A stretch of 64,000 bases of DNA from Sphingobacteriales bacterium 16-39-50 (GTDB taxonomy: Bacteria > Bacteroidota > Bacteroidia > Sphingobacteriales > Sphingobacteriaceae), in contig NCHA01000001.1 of the NCBI GenBank assembly GCA_002257025.1, forward strand, positions 558,001 to 622,000, in the 5' to 3' direction. How positions within the stretch are numbered: the first letter of the stretch is position 1; every line of letters begins with the position of its first letter. Under the pieces are notes generated by a model that was not told the DNA's origin, did not search any database, and saw only the letters and a list, made by a program, of their open reading frames with translations. Below, piece by piece: positions 28,779 to 64,000 of the stretch. The position numbers and the translations under genes were made by a program.

Positions 28779-28862
28779 GCCCGGATGGCGAAATTGGTAA
28801 ACGTTGCGGTCTCAGAAGCCGTTGGAGTTATATCCTTGAGAGTTCGAGTCTCTCTTCGGGCA
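28779..28862 (+). tRNA. tRNA-Leu (anticodon CAG)
   Basis: This 84-base gene has a 7-bp acceptor stem GCCCGGA/TTCGGGC (one G-T pair), the D-arm GCGAAATTGGTAAACG, and a long variable arm as expected for class II tRNA. The T-arm contains GAGTTCGAGTCTC. The anticodon stem encloses the loop CTCAGAA, giving anticodon CAG. Position 37 is A and not the more usual G of leucine tRNAs. CCA is not encoded. Confidence 0.93.
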
Positions 28863-28867
28863 CGAGT

Positions 28868-28957: not shown

Positions 28958-29041
28958 GCCCAGGTGGCGAAATTGGTAGACGCACCACTTTGAGGGGGTG
29001 GCGCCCTAACGGGTGTGGCAGTTCGAATCTGCTCCTGGGCA
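28958..29041 (+). tRNA. tRNA-Leu (anticodon GAG)
   Basis: This 84-base gene has the acceptor stem GCCCAGG/CCTGGGC, D-arm GCGAAATTGGTAGACGC and anticodon stem CCACT/GGTGG around TTGAGGG, giving anticodon GAG. A long variable arm (CGCCCTAACGGGTG) and a T-arm with CAGTTCGAATCTG follow. CCA is not encoded. It lies 95 bases after the CAG tRNA and is probably in the same transcript. Confidence 0.95.
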
Positions 29042-29129
29042 CAAAAAAAAAGTTATATGTTGTCGATTAGCTCTTACCTGGCTAGCGACGGGGACGGAAA
29101 TTTTAAATTGAAATTTCTACTAATCTTCA

Positions 29130-51888: not shown

Positions 51889-52015
51889 GCGTTAGAATGA
51901 GCTTTAAATAGCGGGTAAATTTCTGATTTTTCAGCTAACTATTGTCATTTTTAAAAAATAAAAGAAATAATCCGGGCATATTTCCGGCTCTCCCCGGCTA
52001 CAGTTTATATTTTGC

Positions 52016-52023
52016 TATTTTTG
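52016..52023 (+). promoter_or_regulatory. Predicted -7 box of the tgt operon promoter
   Basis: TATTTTTG matches TAnnTTTG 21 bases before the tgt ATG. No clear -33 TTTG is present upstream. Confidence 0.5.
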
Positions 52024-52044
52024 CGGCTAATATTTTGCAATTGA

Positions 52045-53175
52045 ATGAAATTTAAATTAGAGGCTTCAGATAAATCTTCAAAAGCAAGGGCAGGTGAAAT
52101 AATTACTGACCATGGCATCATCAAAACCCCCATTTTTATGCCTGTGGGTACTGCAGGTTCGGTAAAGGCCGTGCACCAGCATGAACTTTCGGAAGATATT
52201 AAGGCCCAGATCATTCTTGGCAACACCTACCATTTATACCTCAGGCCGGGTCTGGAAACCCTCCAGCTTGCTGGCGGATTGCATAAATTTAATGGTTGGG
52301 ATAAACCCCTGCTGACTGACAGCGGCGGTTATCAGGTCTATTCTCTTTCGGGAGTTCGGAAAATCAAGGAGGAGGGTGTGACCTTCAGATCACATATAGA
52401 CGGTTCAAAACATCTTTTTACCCCTGAATCGGTAATGGATACCCAGAGGGTTATTGGTGCTGATATTATAATGGCCTTCGATGAATGTACACCCTATCCC
52501 TGCGAATATGGCTATGCCCGACGTTCAATGGAAATGACTCATCGATGGCTGAAGCGCTGCTGCGAACGCTTTGATACGACTCTTCCCCTCTATGGATTTG
52601 ATCAAACCCTGTTCCCAATCGTTCAGGGATCGGTATATAAAGATCTTCGTAAGCAATCTGCAGAAGTTATCGCCTCTTTTGAAAGGGAGGGAAACGCAAT
52701 CGGCGGACTCTCAGTTGGAGAACCTGCTGAAGAGATGTATGAAATGACAGATATCGTTACTGATATACTTCCAAAAGACAAGCCACGCTACCTTATGGGT
52801 GTAGGTACTCCTGTAAATATCCTCGAAAATATCGCATTGGGAATAGATATGTTCGACTGTGTAATGCCAACCCGAAATGCCAGAAACGGGATGTTATTTA
52901 CCAAAAATGGGATCATTAATATTCGTAATGAGCGCTGGAAGAACGATTTCTCTCCACTGGAAGAAGATAGTGATCTTTTTGCAGACAGAAATTATTCAAA
53001 GGCGTATCTTAGACATCTGGCTCATTCAAAAGAGATACTGGGTGCTCAGATTGCAACCTTACATAACCTGCACTTTTACTTATGGCTGGTGAATGAGGCC
53101 AGAGAGAAAATTATAGCCGGTGATTTTTACGATTGGAAAAACAAAATGGTCGTTCAATTAGCACAACGCTTATAG
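52045..53175 (+). CDS. tgt: Queuine tRNA-ribosyltransferase
   Basis: This 376-residue enzyme exchanges guanine at wobble position 34 of GUN-anticodon tRNAs for preQ1. The catalytic Asp is in MPTRNARNGMLFT-adjacent segments, and LTDSGGYQVYSL carries the substrate-binding Asp/Ser pair. VGTPVNILENIALGIDMFDCVMPT fits the conserved active-site stretch. The usual zinc-binding C-x-C-x2-C cluster near residue 300 of bacterial Tgt is not visible in this sequence; the region reads NERWKNDFSPLEED. That absence is worth checking. It leads a three-gene run with lptFG and an EamA transporter. Confidence 0.93.
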   Translation: MKFKLEASDKSSKARAGEIITDHGIIKTPIFMPVGTAGSVKAVHQHELSEDIKAQIILGNTYHLYLRPGLETLQLAGGLHKFNGWDKPLLTDSGGYQVYSLSGVRKIKEEGVTFRSHIDGSKHLFTPESVMDTQRVIGADIIMAFDECTPYPCEYGYARRSMEMTHRWLKRCCERFDTTLPLYGFDQTLFPIVQGSVYKDLRKQSAEVIASFEREGNAIGGLSVGEPAEEMYEMTDIVTDILPKDKPRYLMGVGTPVNILENIALGIDMFDCVMPTRNARNGMLFTKNGIINIRNERWKNDFSPLEEDSDLFADRNYSKAYLRHLAHSKEILGAQIATLHNLHFYLWLVNEAREKIIAGDFYDWKNKMVVQLAQRL

Positions 53176-53184
53176 AATTAGAAT

Positions 53185-54264
53185 ATGATCGGAATTATCG
53201 ACTGGTACATCATAAAGAAATATCTGGGGACATTTGCCTTTACCCTGACAATTTTCACTGTGATTATTGTAATTTTCGATGTTTCCGAAAAACTTGATGA
53301 CTTTTTAAGACATCAGGCACCAATGAAAGAGATTATTTTCAGTTATTATGTCGGTTTTATCCCATTTTATCTCAATTTTCTATCACCCTTAATAAATTTC
53401 ATAGCTGTTATTTTCTTTACAGCTAAAATGGCCGATCAGACAGAAATTGTACCAATACTTAGCAGCGGGGTCAGTTTTAAACGATTTCTATGGCCTTACC
53501 TGATCTCATCTACAGTCATTTTCCTGGTTACACTGATCTTTAATCTCTTCATCATTCCTGAAACTAACCGGCTGAAGATTGATTTTGAGAATGTTTATGT
53601 GAATCCGAAATCAGATAATTCCAAGATGTATACCCATATGCAGATTGATAAAAACACGCTGGTATACATTGAAAATTTCGACAATAATTTAAAAACCGGT
53701 TATAAATTCACGCTTGAAAAGTTCTCAGGAATGGATTTGAAAGAAAAGCTCGTTGCCGACAGGATCAGCTGGGATTCAGTTAAAACAAAATGGAAAATTG
53801 AAAACTATTCCATTCGGAAAATTGATGGTTTGAAGGAGTCTATGAGCGCAGGTTTACAAATGGATACCACACTGGATATGCGCCCGAAAGACTTCGAAAT
53901 TTATGATAATATTTACCAGGCAATGAATATGGGGGAATTAAATGATCGCATTAAGAAGGAAGAAATACGAGGCACCGGGGTGATGGCGGATTTAAAACTT
54001 GAAAAATACCAGCGCTTCATCTACCCACTGTCGGCTTTTGTTTTAACCTTAATGGGCGTTTCCCTCTCTTCAAGAAAGGTACGTGGTGGTGTTGGCCTTC
54101 CACTTGGAATAGGTATATTTTTAAGCTTCACCTATATCCTATTCATCAGATTCTCAAGCATGTTTGCCTTAAAAGGCGGACTACCCCCTATGATTGCCGT
54201 TTTAATCCCCAATATAGTTTTTGGAATTCTGGGCATCTATTTATTGATGAAAGCACCAAAATAA
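53185..54264 (+). CDS. LptF/LptG family permease
   Basis: This 359-residue inner-membrane protein of the lipopolysaccharide export ABC transporter has three membrane segments near the N-terminus (about 10-35, 55-80, 100-120), a periplasmic beta-jellyroll domain (about 135-270) and three near the C-terminus (about 283-355). It begins MIGIIDWYIIKKYLGTFAFT, typical of the family. LptF and LptG cannot be told apart with confidence here. It starts 9 bases after tgt, and the EamA gene follows 6 bases later. No other lpt genes are in the window. Confidence 0.94.
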   Translation: MIGIIDWYIIKKYLGTFAFTLTIFTVIIVIFDVSEKLDDFLRHQAPMKEIIFSYYVGFIPFYLNFLSPLINFIAVIFFTAKMADQTEIVPILSSGVSFKRFLWPYLISSTVIFLVTLIFNLFIIPETNRLKIDFENVYVNPKSDNSKMYTHMQIDKNTLVYIENFDNNLKTGYKFTLEKFSGMDLKEKLVADRISWDSVKTKWKIENYSIRKIDGLKESMSAGLQMDTTLDMRPKDFEIYDNIYQAMNMGELNDRIKKEEIRGTGVMADLKLEKYQRFIYPLSAFVLTLMGVSLSSRKVRGGVGLPLGIGIFLSFTYILFIRFSSMFALKGGLPPMIAVLIPNIVFGILGIYLLMKAPK

Positions 54265-54270
54265 ACCATC

Positions 54271-55179
54271 ATGCCTTTTCAAAAACCTGAGATCAGTAAA
54301 AATCTGATCATTCTTCACATCACAGTCTTCGTATGGGGATTTACCGGAATCCTGGGTGCCTTGATCTCTATCGATGCCGCGCATCTCGTTTGGTACAGGG
54401 TTCTTATCGCCTTTATTAGTTTGTATGGATATTTCCTTTTTAAGAAAATATCGATCAGGGTATCCAGAGAAACTTTTTTGAAATTATTCTTTACCGGAGC
54501 TATTGTAGCAGCCCACTGGATTCTGTTCTTTCAATCAATTAAACTGTCTACTGTTTCGGTAGCTCTGGTAAGTCTTTCTTCCCTCACCCTATTCACAGCG
54601 ATATTAGAACCTTTGTTAAAAAGACAAAAAATATCAGGTCTTGAAATATTCACAGGCTTGATGATCATCTCCGGAATCTATATGATCTTTAAATTTGAAT
54701 CGCGTTATTCTATAGGAATTATCAGTGGTTTGTTAAGTGCATTATGTGCCAGTATATTCTCAATCATAAATTCTAAACAAATCCAAAATCGTCCTGCACC
54801 GATTATAAGCTTCTATGAGCTCATTGGAGCATGGGTGTGGGTTTCACTCTATTTATTAATTTCAGAAGGCCTGAAGGCCCCTGTGAGCCTCAATCCTTCA
54901 GATCTGTTCTTTTTATTGATCCTTGGAACCGTTTGTACCTCGCTTGCATACGTTGCTGGGGTGGCTGTCATGAAAGAATTATCTGCTTTCAGGGTTGCTC
55001 TTATCACGAATCTGGAGCCTGTTTATGGCATCATTTTGGCCTTCATGTTCTTTGGAAAGAAGGAACAAATGACTCCTGGATTTTATGCCGGAGCGATAAT
55101 TGTGCTTGGAACGATCTTCCTGTATCCCTATCTAAAAAACATAAAAAGAAAGCCAATTCCCAAAACCCCCATCGGGTAG
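54271..55179 (+). CDS. EamA/DMT-family transporter
   Basis: This 302-residue protein has about ten membrane segments in two repeated EamA halves (about 10-140 and 150-290). The second half includes SPDLFFLLILGTVCTSLAYVAGV-like and NLEPVYGIILAFMFFGKKE segments that are typical. DMT proteins export or import small metabolites such as amino acids; the substrate here is unknown. It follows the LptF/G gene closely and shares the tgt operon. Its stop codon lies in the loop of a possible terminator hairpin. Confidence 0.9.
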   Translation: MPFQKPEISKNLIILHITVFVWGFTGILGALISIDAAHLVWYRVLIAFISLYGYFLFKKISIRVSRETFLKLFFTGAIVAAHWILFFQSIKLSTVSVALVSLSSLTLFTAILEPLLKRQKISGLEIFTGLMIISGIYMIFKFESRYSIGIISGLLSALCASIFSIINSKQIQNRPAPIISFYELIGAWVWVSLYLLISEGLKAPVSLNPSDLFFLLILGTVCTSLAYVAGVAVMKELSAFRVALITNLEPVYGIILAFMFFGKKEQMTPGFYAGAIIVLGTIFLYPYLKNIKRKPIPKTPIG

Positions 55180-55194
55180 GGGAGGAGTTTTTTA
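55165..55194 (+). terminator. Possible terminator overlapping the EamA stop codon
   Basis: CCCC (55167-55170) and GGGG (55179-55182) can pair around the stop codon, followed by AGGAGTTTTTT. The stem is short, so the call is weak. Confidence 0.35.
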
Positions 55195-55815
55195 CACTAA
55201 GCCTGCTTTAAAACAAACTTTAAGTATTGAAAATAATGGTGCTTTACGTCATAGATATTAGCTTTTGGTAGTTCTTTTTATTTCTGAAGATTTCAGGAAA
55301 GCGGCGTTGCGAATTTGTCCTTATTGCCCTCTTTAAAATTCTTTTCGGGATGCAGAAATTAGCATAAATAAAAATTGATGAAAGGTGGAAGAGAGCTTCC
55401 TTAAAAGAGCAGATTCAACTAGCAAAAACAAAAAATTGACAGACTGTTCATGCTATTAAAAATGGGCTAGCATGGTACCGAATAAAATCAGTGTCCCGTT
55501 TCGAAATTTGAAGAATATTAAAGTGGTAATTGAAGGAAAACCTGAAAGCCAGCTATTATCGTAATTCATTAAAAAGGGAATGTCCAATTTCCCTTTCGCC
55601 CGGAAAACAAGTATTTTTTTCAATTACACAAAAATCTCATGGAGAGGACATATTTTTTCATTAATTATTAAATTTAACAGAAATAAAGACAAAAAAATAT
55701 TAATCATAAATAATTAATAATCAGCATTTTAAATTAGTATATTTAATAAAAAGTTTATATAAAAATCTCTTGAAGTTTCTCCTAAAACTAAAATCATTAG
55801 CAAAGCATAAAATAG
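55180..55815. other. Gene-free stretch of 636 bases, very AT-rich towards the right
   Basis: No gene is supported. A 30-codon frame (55472-55564) begins MVPNKISVPFRNLKNI, but it is too short to trust and could be a remnant of a lost gene. The last 200 bases before the protease-like gene are extremely AT-rich and may hold its promoter. I see no repeat or hairpin of note. Confidence 0.4.
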
Positions 55816-58650
55816 ATGAAAATATCAATATTTAATAGTCTGTATATCAGTATATTTATATCGTTTATATTATGTTTAAATATAGTAACCGTTTTTGCTC
55901 AGTTTTTTGATGCTGAACAGAACCCGCCCGGTGTAAAATGGATGCAGATCAGGACAGAAAATTTTCAGATCATCTACTCCGGTGAGCTGTCAGATGAAGC
56001 TAAAAGAATGGCAAATACCCTGGAACATCTGATAGACGGGGTTAGCAAATCCCTTAACAAAAGGCCCCGGCCGATAACGATTATTCTGCAAAATCAAGGT
56101 GTCATTTCGAATGGTTTTGTACAGCTTGCACCCAGGCGTTCGGAGTTCTACACTACCCCACCCCAGAACCTCGACTTCCAGGATTGGCTCAATGGAATGG
56201 CTATCCATGAACTCAGACATGTAGTTCAATTTGATAAATTAAGCGGCGGACTTAAAGCTCCTTTCTTTGAAGAATTAGCCCTTGCCATTTTCGGCATCAC
56301 CCTCCCCCCCTGGTTCTATGAAGGGGATGCTGTCGGTATCGAAACAGCATTGAGTCACGCTGGTCGTGGAAGGCTTCCTGACTGGGAGTTAATTTTCAAA
56401 ACAAATACACTAAGTACCCATCCTTACTCCTACTCAAAGAATTATTTTGGTTCACTCAGGGATCTGACACCCGGCTATTATCAGCTAGGTTATTTTATGA
56501 CCACGAAACTAAAAAGGGACTATGGCAAAGAAATAATCGACAGCATCATGACAAGGATTAAGCGAAATCCTTTGAGACCTTACAGTCTTAGCAATTCGAT
56601 TAAAAAATTTACCGGACTTAACAGCAGAATGCTTCATGACTCTACTATTGCCGAATTGAAGACACTCTGGCAAAAACAATCCGCTAATATGGTGCAGGTA
56701 ATTTATACTCCAATTAACAAAAGAAGGGATTCAATACCTGCCGACTACCTGCTGCCGGTAAGTACACCCAATGGTGAGATTATTGCTTTAAGGCAAAACC
56801 TGACTCATACACCTGCGCTAATCCTTATCGATTCGGCAGGTAGGGAGCGCATACTTCGCAAAATCGGCTATCAAACGGAATATAACTTCAGGTACGCTGC
56901 AGGAAAAATTGTTTGGGATGAACTCAGATTTGACAAACGCTATCGAAAACGCTCTTATAGTGTGATCAATATTTTTGATTTAGCGACCGACCAGGTTAAA
57001 CAAATCAGTCATAAAAGCCGTTTATTCTCCCCCAGCCTCTCGGCTGATGGCAAAACGATTGTGGCTGTAAAAATCAGTACATCAAATCTGTTCTCATTAA
57101 TTGAGCTGAATGCTGAAAACGGAAGTATTCTCCGGGAATATCCGGTTAAAGATGGCTTCAGTTTACAAAATCCATCATACAATGAACATGGAGATCAAAT
57201 TATCTGTGTGGTGATGAGCCAAGATGGTGCTGCCTTAATGGAATTCAAGCATGCAGACAGAAGCAATAGAATCATCACCCCATTTCAAAGACAACAGCTT
57301 ATGCGTCCGGCTTATGCAGGCCAAAATATTTTGTTCAGGGCTCATTACAAAGGCCTGAACAATATTTACTGCCTCACACCTGAATACAAGACCATACCGC
57401 TTACTTCGGTAGCCTATGGGGCTACAAATCCGTCCTATGACCAAAAGAGGAACAGGGTGCTATTCAATAACTATCAGCTTAAAGGATATGATATAGTCAG
57501 CATACCCTTTGAATTACAGAATAACAAACAAGAAGGTGCTGACAAATTCATTAATTATGCATCACCACTGGTTAGACAGGAGGCAAACGCCAATCTTCTC
57601 GACTCAATACCTCAAAAAAAATTTCCATCCAAACCTTACAGAGAATTCAGTAATCTGCTCAATTTCCATAGTCTGTCACCTGTTGCTGAAAACAACGGTA
57701 CTAATGATGACCTGAGCATTGGTCTAAAGCTCAAATCGAACAATCAGCTAAACACCCTGGATCTGTATGGCGGCTACCAATTTAATACAGGACTTAGGAA
57801 AAGTGAATACCTCGCTGGTTTTAGATATAAGCGCTTCTTTCCTATTCTGGATGTTAGCTATTCAAACAGAGCCAATTTGACCTATTCCCGGCAAAATAAT
57901 CGTCTGGTTCCGGTAAGCTGGCGCGAGAACATAACTGAAGCTGAAATCAGCCTCCCCTTTACATTTAATCGCCTCAATCAGAACTACAGCATGGGTATAA
58001 GAAGTTCAAGCAGCTTCACCTCAAGGTATGAAATTCAGAATAGGCCCAGTAATTTTATTGAAAAATTGAAATTCCCGATGAAATATCAGTTTTACTTTAG
58101 CCGGAATGCCCGTCGTAGTGCCAGAGATCTCGCTCCAGGCTGGGGACAAAACTTTTCATTTTCCTATTTTCATCTCCCATTCCAGAATTTGCTGAATGGC
58201 TCCCTCCTATCATTCAGAAGTGTCATTTATACTCCCGGACTTTTAAAAAATCATTCATTTCAGGCAAGCTTCAATTATCAGGAAAGCAGCGGAGCCTATG
58301 ATTTTAGTGTAGAGATTCCAAGAATCAGCGGATACAGAAATTTAAGTTTAAATACCCGCCTTCGAAACACTTTGTTACTTGATTATCGTTTTCCATTATT
58401 CTATCCAGATGCCGAGTTAGGCCCCATTGCTTATATTAAAAGATTGAAAGGTGGTTTTTTCGCTGATTTTGAGAATATCGGAAAAGGAAATCCGATCCAG
58501 CCACGAACTTTCGGACTCGAGTTAAGCACAGATATGAATATTATGCGATTTATGCTTCCGAATTTTGAACTTGCCGGTAAGCTGATCTTTGCAAGAGAGA
58601 ATGCACTAAACAAGCCGATCTTTGAGCTTGGATTTACATATGATTTCTAG
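55816..58650 (+). CDS. Zincin-like protease / PD40 propeller / outer-membrane barrel protein
   Basis: This 944-residue exported protein has a signal peptide (about 1-29, ending TVFAQ) and a gluzincin-like protease domain (about 40-290). The zinc motif HELRH (131-135) is followed 34 residues later by WFYEGDA (E169), the usual third ligand, so the zinc site looks complete. A PD40/TolB-like propeller spans about 330-600 (FSPSLSADGKTIVAVK and RPAYAGQNILFRAHYKG are blades). The last 300 residues have alternating amphipathic strands ending FELGFTYDF, with a C-terminal Phe, as in outer-membrane barrels. A surface or periplasmic protease held by a barrel is inferred, and substrate and partners are unknown. 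It stands alone, with AT-rich gaps on both sides. Confidence 0.88.
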   Translation: MKISIFNSLYISIFISFILCLNIVTVFAQFFDAEQNPPGVKWMQIRTENFQIIYSGELSDEAKRMANTLEHLIDGVSKSLNKRPRPITIILQNQGVISNGFVQLAPRRSEFYTTPPQNLDFQDWLNGMAIHELRHVVQFDKLSGGLKAPFFEELALAIFGITLPPWFYEGDAVGIETALSHAGRGRLPDWELIFKTNTLSTHPYSYSKNYFGSLRDLTPGYYQLGYFMTTKLKRDYGKEIIDSIMTRIKRNPLRPYSLSNSIKKFTGLNSRMLHDSTIAELKTLWQKQSANMVQVIYTPINKRRDSIPADYLLPVSTPNGEIIALRQNLTHTPALILIDSAGRERILRKIGYQTEYNFRYAAGKIVWDELRFDKRYRKRSYSVINIFDLATDQVKQISHKSRLFSPSLSADGKTIVAVKISTSNLFSLIELNAENGSILREYPVKDGFSLQNPSYNEHGDQIICVVMSQDGAALMEFKHADRSNRIITPFQRQQLMRPAYAGQNILFRAHYKGLNNIYCLTPEYKTIPLTSVAYGATNPSYDQKRNRVLFNNYQLKGYDIVSIPFELQNNKQEGADKFINYASPLVRQEANANLLDSIPQKKFPSKPYREFSNLLNFHSLSPVAENNGTNDDLSIGLKLKSNNQLNTLDLYGGYQFNTGLRKSEYLAGFRYKRFFPILDVSYSNRANLTYSRQNNRLVPVSWRENITEAEISLPFTFNRLNQNYSMGIRSSSSFTSRYEIQNRPSNFIEKLKFPMKYQFYFSRNARRSARDLAPGWGQNFSFSYFHLPFQNLLNGSLLSFRSVIYTPGLLKNHSFQASFNYQESSGAYDFSVEIPRISGYRNLSLNTRLRNTLLLDYRFPLFYPDAELGPIAYIKRLKGGFFADFENIGKGNPIQPRTFGLELSTDMNIMRFMLPNFELAGKLIFARENALNKPIFELGFTYDF

Positions 58651-58799
58651 GAATCAGGATAGATAATCAGACTAAACAAAATACTGGTATAAATTTTGAA
58701 TCATAATACTCATGAGATTTTTCTAATACTCGGAGGACAGAGATAATTTTATTAATTTCACTTGCAATTCCGATATTCACATAAATAAATATTCAATGT

Positions 58800-59096
58800 A
58801 TGACCTTTAAAACTATCTTCATAATCGTTGTCACGGTACTTGTGACTATCATACTCATGAATAATACCGATGAAGTTAGTTTTTGGATTTTCGGTGATGT
58901 GAGATTATCTAAACTGGCTGTACTGGGCGTGATGTTCGGTCTGGGCTTGATCATAGGTTTCATTGCGGGAAGACCACGGAAGAAAATCCAACCTGATTCT
59001 TTCAACTCAGAAGAACTTCTACAGGATAAAGATCATGATTATATCAGAAATGATGCCGATCAGTTGAGCGATGAGGATCGTGATTATATCAGATAG
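58800..59096 (+). CDS. LapA-like (DUF1049) membrane protein
   Basis: This 98-residue protein has two membrane segments (about 5-22 and 36-58) joined by NNTDEVSFWIFGDVRLSK, the classic LapA/DUF1049 layout, followed by GFIAGRPRKK. LapA (YciS) works with LapB in controlling lipopolysaccharide synthesis in E. coli; no LapB is in the window. The acidic C-terminal tail carries two near-copies of a (D/E)(K/D)(D/R)xDYIR motif (residues about 76-82 and 91-98). That duplicated ending is unusual. It converges on ispE. Confidence 0.85.
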   Translation: MTFKTIFIIVVTVLVTIILMNNTDEVSFWIFGDVRLSKLAVLGVMFGLGLIIGFIAGRPRKKIQPDSFNSEELLQDKDHDYIRNDADQLSDEDRDYIR

Positions 59097-59188
59097 AAGC
59101 AAAATGTTTTTATCTCAAATGCAAAAGCATCGACAAATAGACAAATTATCTCATCGACAAATAAAATCATTTATAAATTTTCAAGCTG

Positions 59189-59998
59189 TCAGTCAATTAC
59201 ATAATAAACCTTGTTTTCCTTCTCCAGTTGCGGTAATTTCAGCGCCTCCTTGAATATTCCGTAAACTGATGAACCGCTCCCACTCATTGAGGCGTAAAGG
59301 GCACCGGCCCCATACAATTCAGCCTTTATTCGGGCAATCGCAGGATATTTTGAAAAGACTGATGGTTCAAAGTCGTTTTTGACATGTAATTTCCAGTCCT
59401 CGATTGGAAGTTTGATTAGCTCGGTTAAGGGAGCAGAAACCGGGGAAGCACGGACTCCCTGATAAGCTTCTGCGGTCGACACCTGCACATCCGGCATTAC
59501 CAATACAAAGAAATAATTGCTCAGATCCAGATCCAGGGGACTCAACTGATCTCCCTTTTCAATTGCATAAGCCGGCTTATTCTGAATAAAAAAAGCACAA
59601 TCAGAACCAATTTTAGAAGCATAACTCTCCATTTGAGAGTTTTCCATGCCCAGACCGAATTTTTGATTCAGCAACCTGATGAAATATGAAGCATCGGAAG
59701 ACCCGCCTCCCAATCCGGCACCAATTGGAATATGTTTGTGTAAATGAATACTGACAGGAGGCAGCTCAATGAAATCTTTTTTAAGCAAATGATAGGCTTT
59801 CAGACAAAGATTATCTTCTGCATTCCCCGGAATATTTATGCCAGATGAACTAAACTTTAGCTCATCAGCCTCAATCACCTCTAGGGCATCTTTGATTGCG
59901 AGGGGATAAAAGATCGATTCCAGATTGTGGTAACCATCTGGACGCTTACTGACAATATTTAAGCCTATATTGATCTTAGCATTCGGAAAAAGAATCAT
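59189..59998 (-). CDS. ispE: 4-diphosphocytidyl-2-C-methyl-D-erythritol kinase
   Basis: This 269-residue GHMP-family kinase phosphorylates CDP-methylerythritol in the MEP isoprenoid pathway. It starts MILFPNAKINIGLNIVSKR, with the ATP-binding motif PIGAGLGGGSSDASYFI near residue 90 and the C-terminal GALYASMSGSGSSVYGIF loop. The length and motifs are typical of bacterial IspE. The other MEP genes are not in the window. A -7 box lies about 45 bases upstream. Confidence 0.96.
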   Translation of the reverse strand: MILFPNAKINIGLNIVSKRPDGYHNLESIFYPLAIKDALEVIEADELKFSSSGINIPGNAEDNLCLKAYHLLKKDFIELPPVSIHLHKHIPIGAGLGGGSSDASYFIRLLNQKFGLGMENSQMESYASKIGSDCAFFIQNKPAYAIEKGDQLSPLDLDLSNYFFVLVMPDVQVSTAEAYQGVRASPVSAPLTELIKLPIEDWKLHVKNDFEPSVFSKYPAIARIKAELYGAGALYASMSGSGSSVYGIFKEALKLPQLEKENKVYYVID

Positions 59999-60040
59999 AT
60001 TGTGAACATACTGATATATTTATGAACAATTTTAGGATGC

Positions 60041-60048
60041 CAAAATTA
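60041..60048 (-). promoter_or_regulatory. Predicted -7 box of the ispE promoter
   Basis: TAATTTTG (minus strand) matches TAnnTTTG about 45 bases before the ispE ATG. No -33 box was found at the expected distance. Confidence 0.4.
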
Positions 60049-60069
60049 CATTTATTTTATTTGCACTTA

Positions 60070-60118
60070 ATAAGTTGTAAGTTTTAAGTTATAGGTTGTA
60101 AGTATTGAACTTTACAAC
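60070..60118. repeat. Short wordlike array (inverted AACTTATAACCTACAACTT type)
   Basis: AATAAGTTGTAAGTTTTAAG followed by TTATAGGTTGTAAGTATT is the inverse of the arrays at 4873-4912 and 16275-16309. It lies in the ispE-thyA divergent region. Confidence 0.65.
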
Positions 60119-60166
60119 TCCAGACAACAGATAACAGACAACTGGTAACAGACAACAGATAACCAA
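60118..60166. repeat. Short wordlike array (ACAACAGATAACAGACAACTGGT type)
   Basis: CAGACAACAGATAACAGACA, then ACTGGTAACAGACAACAGAT, directly before the thyA start codon region. It is related to the array between the tRNA-Leu genes. Confidence 0.65.
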
Positions 60167-60169
60167 ATC

Positions 60170-60964
60170 ATGAAACAATATCACGAGTTGATGCAGCATG
60201 TTCTGCAAAACGGAACCCAAAAGCAAGATCGCACAGGAACCGGCACGATCAGTGTATTTGGCTACCAGATGCGTTTCAATCTTCAGGAAGGATTTCCGCT
60301 GGTAACCACCAAGAAAGTGCACCTGAGGTCTATTATTCACGAATTGATCTGGTTTTTGAAGGGTGAAACCAATATTAAATACTTAAAAGATAATGGGGTT
60401 AGTATTTGGGATGAATGGGCTGATGAAAATGGTGAACTTGGACCGGTATATGGCTCCCAATGGCGCTCATGGCCTACACCTGATGGCGGACATATTGATC
60501 AAATTACACAAGTAATCAAACAGATCCGTAATAATCCGGATTCAAGACGCTTAATTGTGTCTGCATGGAATGTTGCAGAAATTGAAAATATGGCTCTTCC
60601 ACCCTGCCATAGTTTCTTTCAATTCTATGTTGCAGATGGTAAGTTAAGCTGCCAGCTTTATCAGCGCAGTGCCGACATATTTTTGGGGGTTCCATTTAAT
60701 ATTGCCTCATACGCCCTGCTGACCATGATGGTAGCACAGGTTTGCGGATTGGAAGCCGGGGATTTTGTACACACTTTTGGAGATGCACATCTTTACAATA
60801 ACCATCTGGAGCAAACCAGGCTACAATTAAGCCGGGAATGCAAACCGCTTCCTGTAATGGAGCTAAATCCGGAGATCAGGGATATTTTTGATTTTAAGTT
60901 TGAAGACTTCAGTCTGGAGAACTATGACCCGCATCCCCATATAAAGGGAGCTGTAGCTATCTAA
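60170..60964 (+). CDS. thyA: Thymidylate synthase
   Basis: This 264-residue enzyme makes dTMP from dUMP with methylene-tetrahydrofolate and matches the length of E. coli ThyA. It carries [15 protein letters not shown], the catalytic Cys in [14 protein letters not shown] (near residue 146), the RRLIVSAWN Arg pair, and [18 protein letters not shown]. The ATG is 4 bases after a wordlike array. folA follows 9 bases later, a common pairing because ThyA oxidises the folate that DHFR reduces. Confidence 0.97.
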
Positions 60965-60973
60965 TCAAAGCAT

Positions 60974-61459
60974 ATGAATATTAATCTGATTGTTGCCATT
61001 GACGAAAAGAATGGAATTGGCAAAAACAATCTCCTACCCTGGCATCTGCCGGCAGATCTGAAACATTTTAAAACGATCACTACCGGGCATCCTATTATTA
61101 TGGGAAGAAAGACCTTTGATTCTATCGGGAAAGCCCTGCCAAACAGAAGAAATATCGTAATAAGCAGACAATCCAGACTGAAAATACCAGGAGTTGAATT
61201 ATGCAGTTCGTTGAATAATGCAATTGAATTATGTAAAGACGAGAATGATGTATTTGTAATTGGAGGAGCGCAAATATTTGAGCAGGCACTTCCTCTAGCT
61301 AATGTACTTTACCTTACTATTATTCATGAGGATTTTGATAGTGATGTATTTTTCCCGTTGATTAACATGAATGAATGGACTGAGAAAGAAAAAACTCTTC
61401 ATCAACCTGATGAAAAGAACTTATATTCTTATAGTTTTATCAAATACAAAAAAGCCTGA
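60974..61459 (+). CDS. folA: Dihydrofolate reductase
   Basis: This 161-residue NADPH enzyme regenerates tetrahydrofolate. It starts MNINLIVAIDEKNGIGKNN and shows LPWHLPADLKHFK (active-site acid Asp), GHPIIMGRKTFDSIG and VFVIGGAQIFEQAL. The length is the same as E. coli DHFR. It forms an operon with thyA. There is a 115-base gap and a likely separate promoter before secDF. Confidence 0.97.
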   Translation: MNINLIVAIDEKNGIGKNNLLPWHLPADLKHFKTITTGHPIIMGRKTFDSIGKALPNRRNIVISRQSRLKIPGVELCSSLNNAIELCKDENDVFVIGGAQIFEQALPLANVLYLTIIHEDFDSDVFFPLINMNEWTEKEKTLHQPDEKNLYSYSFIKYKKA

Positions 61460-61514
61460 ATTTCTTCTGTAATTTTCTGTGTTAAAGAATTATTCCAAAA
61501 AACAAAAATTTAGT

Positions 61515-61522
61515 TAGCTTTG
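61515..61522 (+). promoter_or_regulatory. Predicted -7 box of the secDF promoter
   Basis: TAGCTTTG matches TAnnTTTG about 52 bases before the secDF ATG. The -33 region is unclear. Confidence 0.4.
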
Positions 61523-61574
61523 GCGTCTTAACCAAAATAGGCTTAAATCAACATTAATAGACAATTAAAATAAA

Positions 61575-64000
61575 ATGCAAGGTAAAGGATTAGTTAAATT
61601 CGCAGCAATAGCGCTCACTATAGCGTGTTTGTATTCCCTCTCGTTTACGTGGATAGCGAATAAAGTTGAAAAAGATGCACAGGAATTTGCAAAAGGTGAT
61701 GCTGTAAAAGAGAAAGTTTATCTTGATTCAGTAGCCTCATTACCAGTGTATAGCAGCCTGAGTTATATTACCTATCAGTACGCTAAAGAACGCGAAATTC
61801 CACTTGGACTTGACTTAAAAGGTGGTATGAACGTTACCATGGAGATCGCATTGAGTGATATGGTTCGTAACCTTGCAAATAATAGTACTGATGCAAATTT
61901 CAATGCGGCAATCAAAAATGCTGAAGTTGCCATGGCAACAGGTGAAAGTGATTTCATTGGTGTTTTTGGTAAAGAGTTCGAAAAAATTAGTCCGAACAGT
62001 AAATTATCTCCATTATTTGCAACAAAAGAGAATTCTGCAAACCTGAAGATTGATGCCAGCAATGAGGATGTTTTAAATTTCCTGAGAAAATCTGCAGATG
62101 GTGCAATCGACCTTTCATTCAATATTCTTCGTACCCGTATTGATAAGTTTGGAGTAACCTCCCCTAACATTCAAAAACAACAGGGAACCAACCGTATTCT
62201 GATTGAACTTCCTGGTGTAACAGATCCGGATCGTGTACGTAAATTACTTCAGGGATCAGCAAAACTTGAATTTTGGGAGACCTATGATAATGCTGAGATC
62301 TTTAGTTTACTTCAGAATGTTAACAGTATTCTGGCATCAACTATTAAATCAACAGATACTTCAAGCGCTTCTGTCGCTCAGGATACAACTAAAAGTAAAC
62401 TTGCAGCTTTAGGTAAGAAAGACAGTTCTGCTGTTGACAGTGCTGCTGCTCTAAGTAAAGTACAAGCCGAGCAGGCAAAACAAAATCCATTGTTTGCACT
62501 TCTAAATCCTGCAACATATCAGGGTCAGGACGGTCAGGTTAATTTACGCCCTGGACCAGTTGTTGGATATGCCGCTCTAAAAGATACTGCAAAAGTAAAC
62601 TCTTACCTTTCTTCAGCAGCTGTCAGAGCTGTTATCCCGCAGAATATCAGATTGTTCTGGGGAGTGAAGCCTATGTCAGAAGAGAGCAAGGTATTTGAAC
62701 TTTATGCTCTTAAAACCAGCAATTTAGGTGGTGGACCGGCATTGGAGGGAGATGTGATTTCTGACGCCCGTTCTGATTACGACCAAAAAGGAAATCCGGA
62801 AGTTGTAATGGTTATGAATGCAGATGGAGCACGTGCTTGGCGTTCAATTACTGCTGCTGCATCAGCTGATCCAAATAATAAAAAAAGTGTTGCTATTGTA
62901 CTTGATAATCTGGTTTACTCTGCCCCTACAGTTCAGGGAGAAATTCCAAACGGAATTTCATCAATTAGTGGAAGCTTTAAAGTTGAAGACACCCAGGATC
63001 TTGCAAACGTTTTGAAAGCAGGAAGATTACCTGCTCCAGCGAAAATTGTCAGTGATTATGTTGTTGGTCCATCCTTAGGAGCAGCTTCAATCTCAGCAGG
63101 TTTAATTTCTACCATTGCTGGTGTCATCTTTATTCTACTATTCATGGCAATGTATTATAGTACAGCCGGATTAGTTGCTAACATTGCCTTACTGGTAAAC
63201 TTATTCTTCCTGATGGGCGTACTAGCATCTTTAGGTGCTGTATTAACTTTACCGGGTATTGCAGGTATTGTCCTTTCGCTGGGTATGTCTGTTGATGCAA
63301 ACGTTTTGATCTATGAAAGGATCAGGGAAGAGCTCGCAGAGGGAAAATCTGCAAGATTAGCAATCACTGAGGGCTTCAAGAAAGCAATGCCTTCTATCCT
63401 TGACTCAAATATCACAACTTTCTTAACAGGTGTAATTCTGTACATATTCGGACAGGGACCAATTGTGGGTTTTGCTACTACATTGATGATCGGTATTATC
63501 ACTTCCCTGTTTGCAGCAATATTCATTTCCAGACTGGTATTTGAATGGTTGCTTGACAGAAAAAAGCCTATCAGCTTCTCAATTAAAGCAACACAAAATT
63601 TATTCAAAGATTCCAAATTTGACTTCATCACCGGCAGAAAACGTTTTTATATCCTTTCATCTGCAATAATCGTTGCCGGAATCATCTCTGCCTTTACTCA
63701 GGGATTCAGCCTTGGAGTAGATTTCCAGGGTGGAAGAGCTTATTTTGTTGCATTTGATAAACCTGTTGAAGTTGAAAATGTTCGTTCTGTTTTAATTGAT
63801 GAATTTGGAACAGCGGTTGAAGTAAAAACCTTTGGTTCTTCCAATCAGGTTAAGATCACTACTGCTTACCTTATCAACGACAACTCAGATCAGGCAAACG
63901 ACCAGGTTAGCTCAAAATTGGCATCCGGTCTTAAGAAAATTAATCCTGTTTATGAGATAAAGGATTCACAGAAAGTGACACCTACAATAGCCGAAGACAT
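61575..64000 (+). CDS. secDF: Fused protein translocase subunit SecDF (3' end outside window)
   Basis: 808 codons and two bases are visible, and the frame is still open at the right edge, so the gene is partial. SecDF uses the proton gradient to help the SecYEG channel move proteins across the inner membrane. After an N-terminal membrane segment (about 6-26) comes REIPLGLDLKGGMNVTMEI, the start of the SecD periplasmic domain. The first membrane bundle is near residues 510-660, with GIVLSLGMSVDANVLIYERI. The SecF part then starts in the same frame (KFDFITGRKRFYILSS, then GFSLGVDFQGGRAYF near 712). One continuous frame through both parts supports a true fusion, which is usual in Bacteroidota. 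The start is ATG 61575. Confidence 0.96.
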   Translation, partial: MQGKGLVKFAAIALTIACLYSLSFTWIANKVEKDAQEFAKGDAVKEKVYLDSVASLPVYSSLSYITYQYAKEREIPLGLDLKGGMNVTMEIALSDMVRNLANNSTDANFNAAIKNAEVAMATGESDFIGVFGKEFEKISPNSKLSPLFATKENSANLKIDASNEDVLNFLRKSADGAIDLSFNILRTRIDKFGVTSPNIQKQQGTNRILIELPGVTDPDRVRKLLQGSAKLEFWETYDNAEIFSLLQNVNSILASTIKSTDTSSASVAQDTTKSKLAALGKKDSSAVDSAAALSKVQAEQAKQNPLFALLNPATYQGQDGQVNLRPGPVVGYAALKDTAKVNSYLSSAAVRAVIPQNIRLFWGVKPMSEESKVFELYALKTSNLGGGPALEGDVISDARSDYDQKGNPEVVMVMNADGARAWRSITAAASADPNNKKSVAIVLDNLVYSAPTVQGEIPNGISSISGSFKVEDTQDLANVLKAGRLPAPAKIVSDYVVGPSLGAASISAGLISTIAGVIFILLFMAMYYSTAGLVANIALLVNLFFLMGVLASLGAVLTLPGIAGIVLSLGMSVDANVLIYERIREELAEGKSARLAITEGFKKAMPSILDSNITTFLTGVILYIFGQGPIVGFATTLMIGIITSLFAAIFISRLVFEWLLDRKKPISFSIKATQNLFKDSKFDFITGRKRFYILSSAIIVAGIISAFTQGFSLGVDFQGGRAYFVAFDKPVEVENVRSVLIDEFGTAVEVKTFGSSNQVKITTAYLINDNSDQANDQVSSKLASGLKKINPVYEIKDSQKVTPTIAED

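Follow-up and report, generated by a model that had tools for sequence, protein, structure and literature searches.

Omp85 proteins build the bacterial outer membrane. According to excerpts of Heinz and Lithgow (2014, PMC4104836), the superfamily is defined by its barrel, which is preceded by a TolB-like propeller in the WD40-Omp85 subfamily and joined to a 'metalloprotease' domain in the 'Metallo' subfamily, the latter being defined by PF00149. Here, we describe a gene in a stretch of 64,000 nucleotides from Sphingobacteriales bacterium 16-39-50 (the window; contig NCHA01000001.1, positions 558,001 to 622,000 of the forward strand). Its predicted product (the window protein) appears to combine a zinc metallopeptidase, a TolB-like propeller and an Omp85-like barrel. 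This combination of protease, propeller and barrel in one chain was proposed in an earlier note made from the sequence alone, and is supported here by conservation, profile comparisons, a sister clade and a second protein of the same genome. The note named neither the type of the barrel nor the spread of the family.

Among described kinds, the window protein is closest to the WD40-Omp85 subfamily. It resembles this subfamily, as judged by its description, in the order of a propeller followed by an Omp85-class barrel, and differs from it in the peptidase, as the excerpted section 10 of PMC4104836 mentions no protease. Unlike classical Omp85 proteins, it has no POTRA domain. PF00149 is by its Pfam description a calcineurin-like phosphoesterase; it was not found by Pfam in the window protein, and two proteins of relatives combine Metallophos with Omp85 with no peptidase match. 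PlpD, a patatin-Omp85 protein once thought to be secreted, has a periplasmic enzyme domain ahead of its Omp85 barrel, but it is a lipase and not a protease, has a POTRA domain and is described with no mention of a propeller in the excerpts of PMC11116518. BepA (M48) is a zinc peptidase at the β-barrel assembly machinery (BAM) (excerpts of PMC13067283 and PMC8423444), and a comparable role at the inner face of the outer membrane is considered here by analogy. The peptidase family of BepA differs from that of the window protein. To our knowledge, BepA has no barrel of its own. A literature search, with most subscription papers outside its reach, found no account of a metallopeptidase-propeller-Omp85 protein.

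Conserved zinc site and TolB-like propeller

Relatives were gathered from whole genomes and fall into three clades: clade A, which contains the window protein (59 rows representing 58 genes, the window's included, as L021 and L039 are one gene), and the sister clades B and C with 16 members each. Each clade occupies one side of a branch in the tree built from 91 peptidase domains. Clade C was set aside as an orthologous group of the window gene, given this separation of A, B and C.

The HELRH motif (131-135) and E169 within WFYEGDA, which the earlier note had read as a zinc site, are both in place. The residues H131, E132, R134, H135, Q138, E169, G170, D171 and A172 are identical in 59/59 clade A rows, while the H, E and H positions of HELRH and the E, G and A positions of WFYEGDA are kept in all 16 rows of clade B and all 16 of clade C. 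The window protein thus displays the HExxH motif and downstream glutamate ligand of the gluzincin type. In alignment A5, which comprises 28 rows from the three clades, the invariant residues include N99, G100, W124, H131, E132, H135, P164, E169, G170, A172, Y222 and G225. Profile-profile comparison of the peptidase domain between clades gave 99.4-100%.

When the peptidase profile was compared with the PDB, collagenase G entries were the best matches, at weak scores (E 0.0045 to 0.021), followed by an unrelated chain at 0.84. Collagenase G is a gluzincin. The HExxH motif with its downstream glutamate is common to the window protein, to such gluzincins and to Peptidase_MA_2 (PF13485). Clade C matches this family in 16/16 members at E 0.01 or better (best 3.3e-14), the three members with scores shown lying below the family cut-off, whereas the window protein itself has no match over cut-off in the curated peptidase families of Pfam and NCBIfam. 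The pairing of a peptidase MA-like domain with PD40 was found by Pfam in clade C (both in 16/16 members) and not in the window protein.

The propeller behind the zinc site, recognized as PD40 in the earlier note, is supported at the level of the family: profile A1 matches solved TolB propellers (best 7mx5, E 1.2e-12), as does the clade C profile alone (E 4.5e-19). Six blades can be read by eye as repeats of ~46 residues between residues 310 and 600. The window protein alone gave no Pfam match to PD40.

Barrel profiles and Omp85 signatures

The C-terminal parts were compared by hhalign with 30 Omp85 sequences (from 32 loci, two short ones being dropped). PorP/SprF (30 sequences), Toluene_X (22 sequences, mostly weak matches with only L202, L203 and L204 over the family cut-off), reversed profiles and column shuffles served as controls. 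The C-terminal third of clade A scored 87.8% against Omp85 in global mode over 314 columns, and the clade C barrel scored 97.2% locally and 98.3% globally. The barrels of clades A and C matched each other at 90.5% (92.2% in the other direction), and those of clades A and B at 99.0%. For all three clades, PorP/SprF and Toluene_X remained at ≤2.2%, reversed profiles at ≤1.3% and column shuffles at ≤0.7%. Restricting clade A to the 30 rows with an RG motif gave 28.8% against Omp85 and 78.5% against clade C, no gain over the full set. Pfam detected Omp85 (PF01103) directly in 2/16 clade C members at E 0.01 or better (best 3.6e-8). Clade C bridges the barrel of the window family to Omp85 (97.2% and 90.5%), and these profile comparisons support homology of the C-terminal third to Omp85 barrels.

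With regard to the barrel of about 300 residues that had been proposed for the C-terminus, the terminal phenylalanine is present, a strand heuristic agrees with amphipathic strands and the profiles point to Omp85; closure was modelled at low confidence only. The heuristic yielded 20 peaks; with four of them omitted post hoc, the remainder would fit 16 amphipathic strands (11 before loop L6 and five after).

In Omp85 proteins, the arginine of a (V/I)RG(Y/F) motif at loop L6 pairs with the aspartate of an (F/G)xDxG motif on strand 13, forming the lid lock (excerpts of PMC4490367). At position 838, clade A has arginine in 27/59 rows and serine in 20/59; RG(Y/F) occurs at L6 in 19/59 rows and the strict (V/I)RG(Y/F) in 0/59, the window protein reading ISGY. 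D884 is present in 52/59 rows, with FxD in 51/59 and the full FxDxG in 7/59; FADFE of the window protein keeps the F and D of the strand-13 motif and not the G. All 27 rows with R838 have D884, compared to 25 of the 32 without it (Fisher p 0.012, relatedness not accounted for).

Family, gene neighbourhood and decay

The peptidase profile matches 244/395 sampled Bacteroidota genomes at E 0.001, 210 of them better than E 1e-20; these counts concern the peptidase domain and not the full architecture. Judged by this profile, relatives of the window protein are widespread in the phylum. The host is a Daejeonella-like member of the Bacteroidota, and the nearest named relatives are contigs of metagenome-assembled genomes labelled Daejeonella, Bacteroidetes bacterium and Sphingobacterium. 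No relatives were found in the viral contigs and plasmids searched. All three domains are under purifying selection: in the computable comparisons of the window gene with four close relatives, the ratio of nonsynonymous to synonymous substitution (dN/dS) per domain lies at 0.06-0.13 (two comparisons involving L033 were saturated), and between L034 and L035 it is ~0.04-0.17. One genome (G013; L027, G013:C18) encodes a second, divergent clade A copy beside its orthologue, which reads ARGY and FYDMG.

A search of its own genome with the window protein returned only the window protein itself, and the peptidase profile gave a further, weaker match (E 1.0e-5) in a protein of 1039 amino acids (aa). 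This protein has HELVH at 147 and WMVEGMA at 175, and matches PD40 (E 5.2e-24), BSP peptidase (PF04450, E 1e-5) and, slightly below the cut-off, Peptidase_MA_2 (E 2.3e-7; 31.3 bits, cut-off 32.4). Its peptidase part scored 87.4%, 97.5% and 96.6% against clades A, B and C, respectively. Towards its C-terminus it carries the exact Omp85 signatures IRGY (902) and FFDMG (965), and this part, compared as a single sequence, scored 70.5% locally against Omp85 and 30.0% against clade C. BLASTP aligned it to the window protein from HELRH onwards (21% identity over 433 columns, E 1e-6). Matches to it were found in 56/61 sampled genomes at E 0.001, many in the propeller only, and eight rows including its own were near start-to-end. 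The protease-propeller-Omp85 plan is thus present at least twice in this genome; one copy has the canonical barrel signatures and the other lacks them.

The window gene is an open frame of 944 aa ending in Phe. The Q29 that follows the predicted signal peptide is invariant in 24/24 rows of alignment A1. NCBIfam gave no match over cut-off for the window protein, phmmer against the PDB nothing usable, and Rfam no match in positions 52000-62000 of the window. A Bacteroidota promoter consensus has one match in the window, far from the gene, compared to 3.96 expected from shuffles. The coordinates of all features are collected in Table 1.

Table 1. Features of the window protein gene and of the related loci discussed in the text. 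Positions are those of the window unless a locus (L) or contig is named.
Feature	Position	Strand	Basis
Whole gene: signal peptide, zinc metallopeptidase, TolB-like propeller, Omp85-like barrel (predicted)	55816..58650	+	open frame
Signal peptide (predicted), residues 1-28, cleavage probably before Q29	55816..55899	+	hydrophobic N-terminus, ending FA before Q
Peptidase domain (predicted), residues ~30-305	55903..56730	+	alignment A5, profile-profile 99.4-100% between clades
HELRH zinc motif (putative), residues 131-135	56206..56220	+	conservation in clades A, B, C
WFYEGDA, residues 166-172, with putative third zinc ligand E169	56311..56331	+	conservation in clades A, B, C
Tyr222, candidate transition-state residue	56479..56481	+	invariant in 28/28 rows of A5
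TolB/PD40-type propeller (predicted), residues ~310-600, six blades by eye	56743..57615	+	profile A1 against TolB structures
Omp85-like outer-membrane barrel (predicted), residues ~605-944	57628..58647	+	hhalign against 30 Omp85 sequences; strand heuristic
ISGY (837-840), site of Omp85 (V/I)RG(Y/F) in loop L6	58324..58335	+	clade A alignment
FADFE (882-886), site of Omp85 strand-13 motif (F/G)xDxG	58459..58473	+	clade A alignment
LapA/DUF1049-like membrane protein of 98 aa, downstream neighbour	58800..59096	+	PF06305 E 0.012, below cut-off
Two closely spaced tRNA-Leu genes (cag, gag)	28779-28863, 28958-29042	+	
Protease-propeller-Omp85 protein of 1039 aa (predicted), outside the window	L230 1248-4367 (G000:C42:15747-18866)	-	peptidase profile, Pfam
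Clade C gene just downstream of an NF052323 open reading frame	L089 5138-7942	-	NCBIfam
Metallophos-Omp85 proteins of two relatives	L225 56-3556; L226 200-3658	+	

The gene had been described as standing alone in AT-rich DNA. The composition agrees with this (29% GC in the upstream 636 bp and 26% in the downstream 149 bp), but the isolation holds only in part, as many close relatives have syntenic neighbours on both sides. In many genomes of family f1, dprA, rsmG, an extracytoplasmic function (ECF) sigma factor, a glycosyltransferase and then tgt, an LptF/G permease and EamA lie upstream, and a LapA-like open reading frame (ORF), ispE, thyA and folA downstream. The LapA-like ORF is the most persistent neighbour in family f1. 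It directly follows the gene in 16/32 loci with an intact copy, all 16 in that family, and is kept in two genomes with other upstream neighbours and in two with a decayed protease gene.

The gene has decayed in two relatives (G002 and G009) and probably in a third (G016). In G002 and G009, only remnants with stops are left at the syntenic place (~residues 5-70 and 166-203; L162, L163), and the genes on both sides are present, with EamA and the LapA-like ORF lying 1.0 kb apart rather than 3.6 kb. In G016 (L164), a first remnant with stops is followed shortly by the end of the contig. A further weak match in G002 (residues 723-772, E 3e-4), situated on a different contig, is unexplained, and no match at all was obtained in G017 (87% complete). 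Given this decay in at least two relatives, the gene is dispensable in some lineages.

In clade C, 12/16 genes lie within ~0.7 kb downstream of a long ORF that has the same orientation and ends in KIAV or a similar sequence. All six of these ORFs that were compared (L089, L090, L092, L097, L098, L104) match NF052323, annotated by NCBIfam as 'T9SS-dependent M6-like inactivated metalloprotease'; four matches are over cut-off and two below, these probably being cut by the locus edge. A corresponding partner in the close relatives of the window was discarded: 0/41 genomes had NF052323 over cut-off, and most of the weak matches listed concern the C-terminal sorting-tail part.

Placement, function and alternative readings

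We consider it reasonably likely that the window gene encodes a secreted zinc metallopeptidase that faces the periplasm and is anchored by an Omp85-class barrel without POTRA domains. The protein would be exported by Sec and released into the periplasm by signal peptidase I, after which its C-terminal third, as homology suggests, would insert as the barrel. The TolB-like propeller stands in the position of the POTRA domains and may serve in their stead. The gluzincin-type site would face the periplasm, with H131, H135 and E169 as putative zinc ligands and E132 as the putative base; conservation of this site points to peptidase activity. By analogy, it probably processes envelope proteins or controls their quality.

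Several results weigh against this reading. A Pfam scan assigned no family to the window protein. Neither Peptidase_MA_2 nor Omp85 was detected in the 24 clade A members scanned (threshold E 1) or in the 16 of clade B (threshold E 0.01), and PD40 was detected in only 10 of the 24 from clade A (best 0.0038). Pfam found no POTRA domain in the window protein either, and residues 30-605 are assigned to the peptidase and the propeller. Locally, clade A reached a weak 30.1% against Omp85. Omp85 and Toluene_X match each other at 12.5% in the same mode, barrels sharing some signal, and weak local scores alone are therefore unpersuasive. The clade B barrel scored 13.1% locally and 1.5% globally against Omp85, and 1.7% and 6.4% in comparison with clade C, while the barrel of the 1039-aa protein, as a single sequence, did not match those of clade A directly (0.2%). 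PDB searches with the family and clade C profiles matched no barrel. The window protein and its subclade read SGY at L6 and FADFE or near at strand 13, so that the L6 arginine is lost and the aspartate mostly stays. None of the neighbours names a substrate, as had already been remarked in the earlier note.

Structure prediction adds to these points. AlphaFold, run on the full-length window protein with five sequences 77-91% identical to it, gave a mean predicted local distance difference test (pLDDT) of 35; the barrel-only model reached 39, with 18 strand elements. Model confidence was too low to decide whether the barrel closes and the zinc ligands meet. Foldseek returned no match to the barrel-only model at E 0.001. 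Its top ten, not counted as evidence, was led by CdiB (E 0.071) and contained TamA and FhaC as well as fluorescent proteins, leukocidins and BtuB.

The earlier note had left the protease either at the surface or in the periplasm. Many proteins reach the cell surface of Bacteroidota by export, and surface proteases anchored by a barrel are known elsewhere, which would fit a peptidase and propeller passed to the outside to act on external proteins. We regard this as unlikely: two folded domains with ~575 residues in all would need to cross the membrane, Omp85 proteins are expected to hold the domains ahead of their barrel in the periplasm, and PlpD, once taken as a precedent for secretion, was found to have its patatin domain in the periplasm only (excerpts of PMC11116518). 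Because of this topology and precedent, the N-terminal domains of the window protein are probably periplasmic.

The protein could also be an assembly factor in the first place, comparable to a fusion of BamA and BamB, whose barrel engages client outer-membrane proteins to insert or stabilize them and whose peptidase clears failures. The homology to Omp85, the co-occurrence of R838 and D884 in 27/59 rows and the intact IRGY and FFDMG of the 1039-aa protein speak for this option, as does the propeller ahead of the barrel, an arrangement compared to a BamA-BamB fusion for WD40-Omp85 (excerpts of PMC4104836). The lack of POTRA domains, the missing L6 arginine in the window subclade and the decay of the gene in relatives speak against it, and we give it little credence. 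No propeller or protease subunit fused to a barrel appears in the term-searched passages of two Bacteroidota BAM papers (PMC12611786, PMC12578637), where the one propeller subunit shown, BamI, belongs to the extracellular portion of the complex. Identity of the window protein with a BAM subunit was set aside on the basis of the same searches.

It is less probable still that the zinc site is kept for structure or binding and that the domain serves in sensing or as a scaffold and does not cleave. Pseudo-proteases do occur in this context, as the clade C neighbour is an inactivated M6-like metalloprotease by NCBIfam. A pseudo-enzyme is, however, expected to lose some residues, and here the zinc histidine pair, the catalytic glutamate, the third-ligand glutamate and also Tyr222 persist in three clades at 19-24% identity to the window domain. 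Finally, an unrelated barrel with general similarity to Omp85, for which the low local scores (30.1%, and 12.5% between Omp85 and Toluene_X) and the strict L6 motif in 0/59 rows could be cited, is improbable in view of the global 87.8% versus ≤2.2% for two other barrel sets, RG(Y/F) in 19/59 and FxD in 51/59 rows at matching places and the direct PF01103 matches of two clade C members.

Within the reading of a periplasm-facing, barrel-anchored metallopeptidase, we tentatively suggest that envelope proteins may be cut on the periplasmic side of the outer membrane, so that a single chain would perform the task that falls to BepA next to BAM in E. coli. A further elaboration is speculative and rather doubtful: the Omp85-class barrel would engage stalled or misfolded outer-membrane proteins, the propeller would hold them and the gluzincin would cut them, as a widespread self-contained machine for which the neighbouring inactivated M6 protease may be the substrate or regulator in clade C.

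If the reading is true, proteins of this kind would be a widespread group with a distinct use of the Omp85 scaffold, in which a metalloprotease and a propeller stand in for POTRA; patatin and phosphoesterase fusions are other such uses. The published 'metalloprotease' Omp85 group is, by the Pfam description of PF00149, a phosphoesterase group, and proteins like that of the window may be the genuine metalloprotease-Omp85 fusions. For the Bacteroidota, this would mean a protease fixed where outer-membrane proteins assemble.

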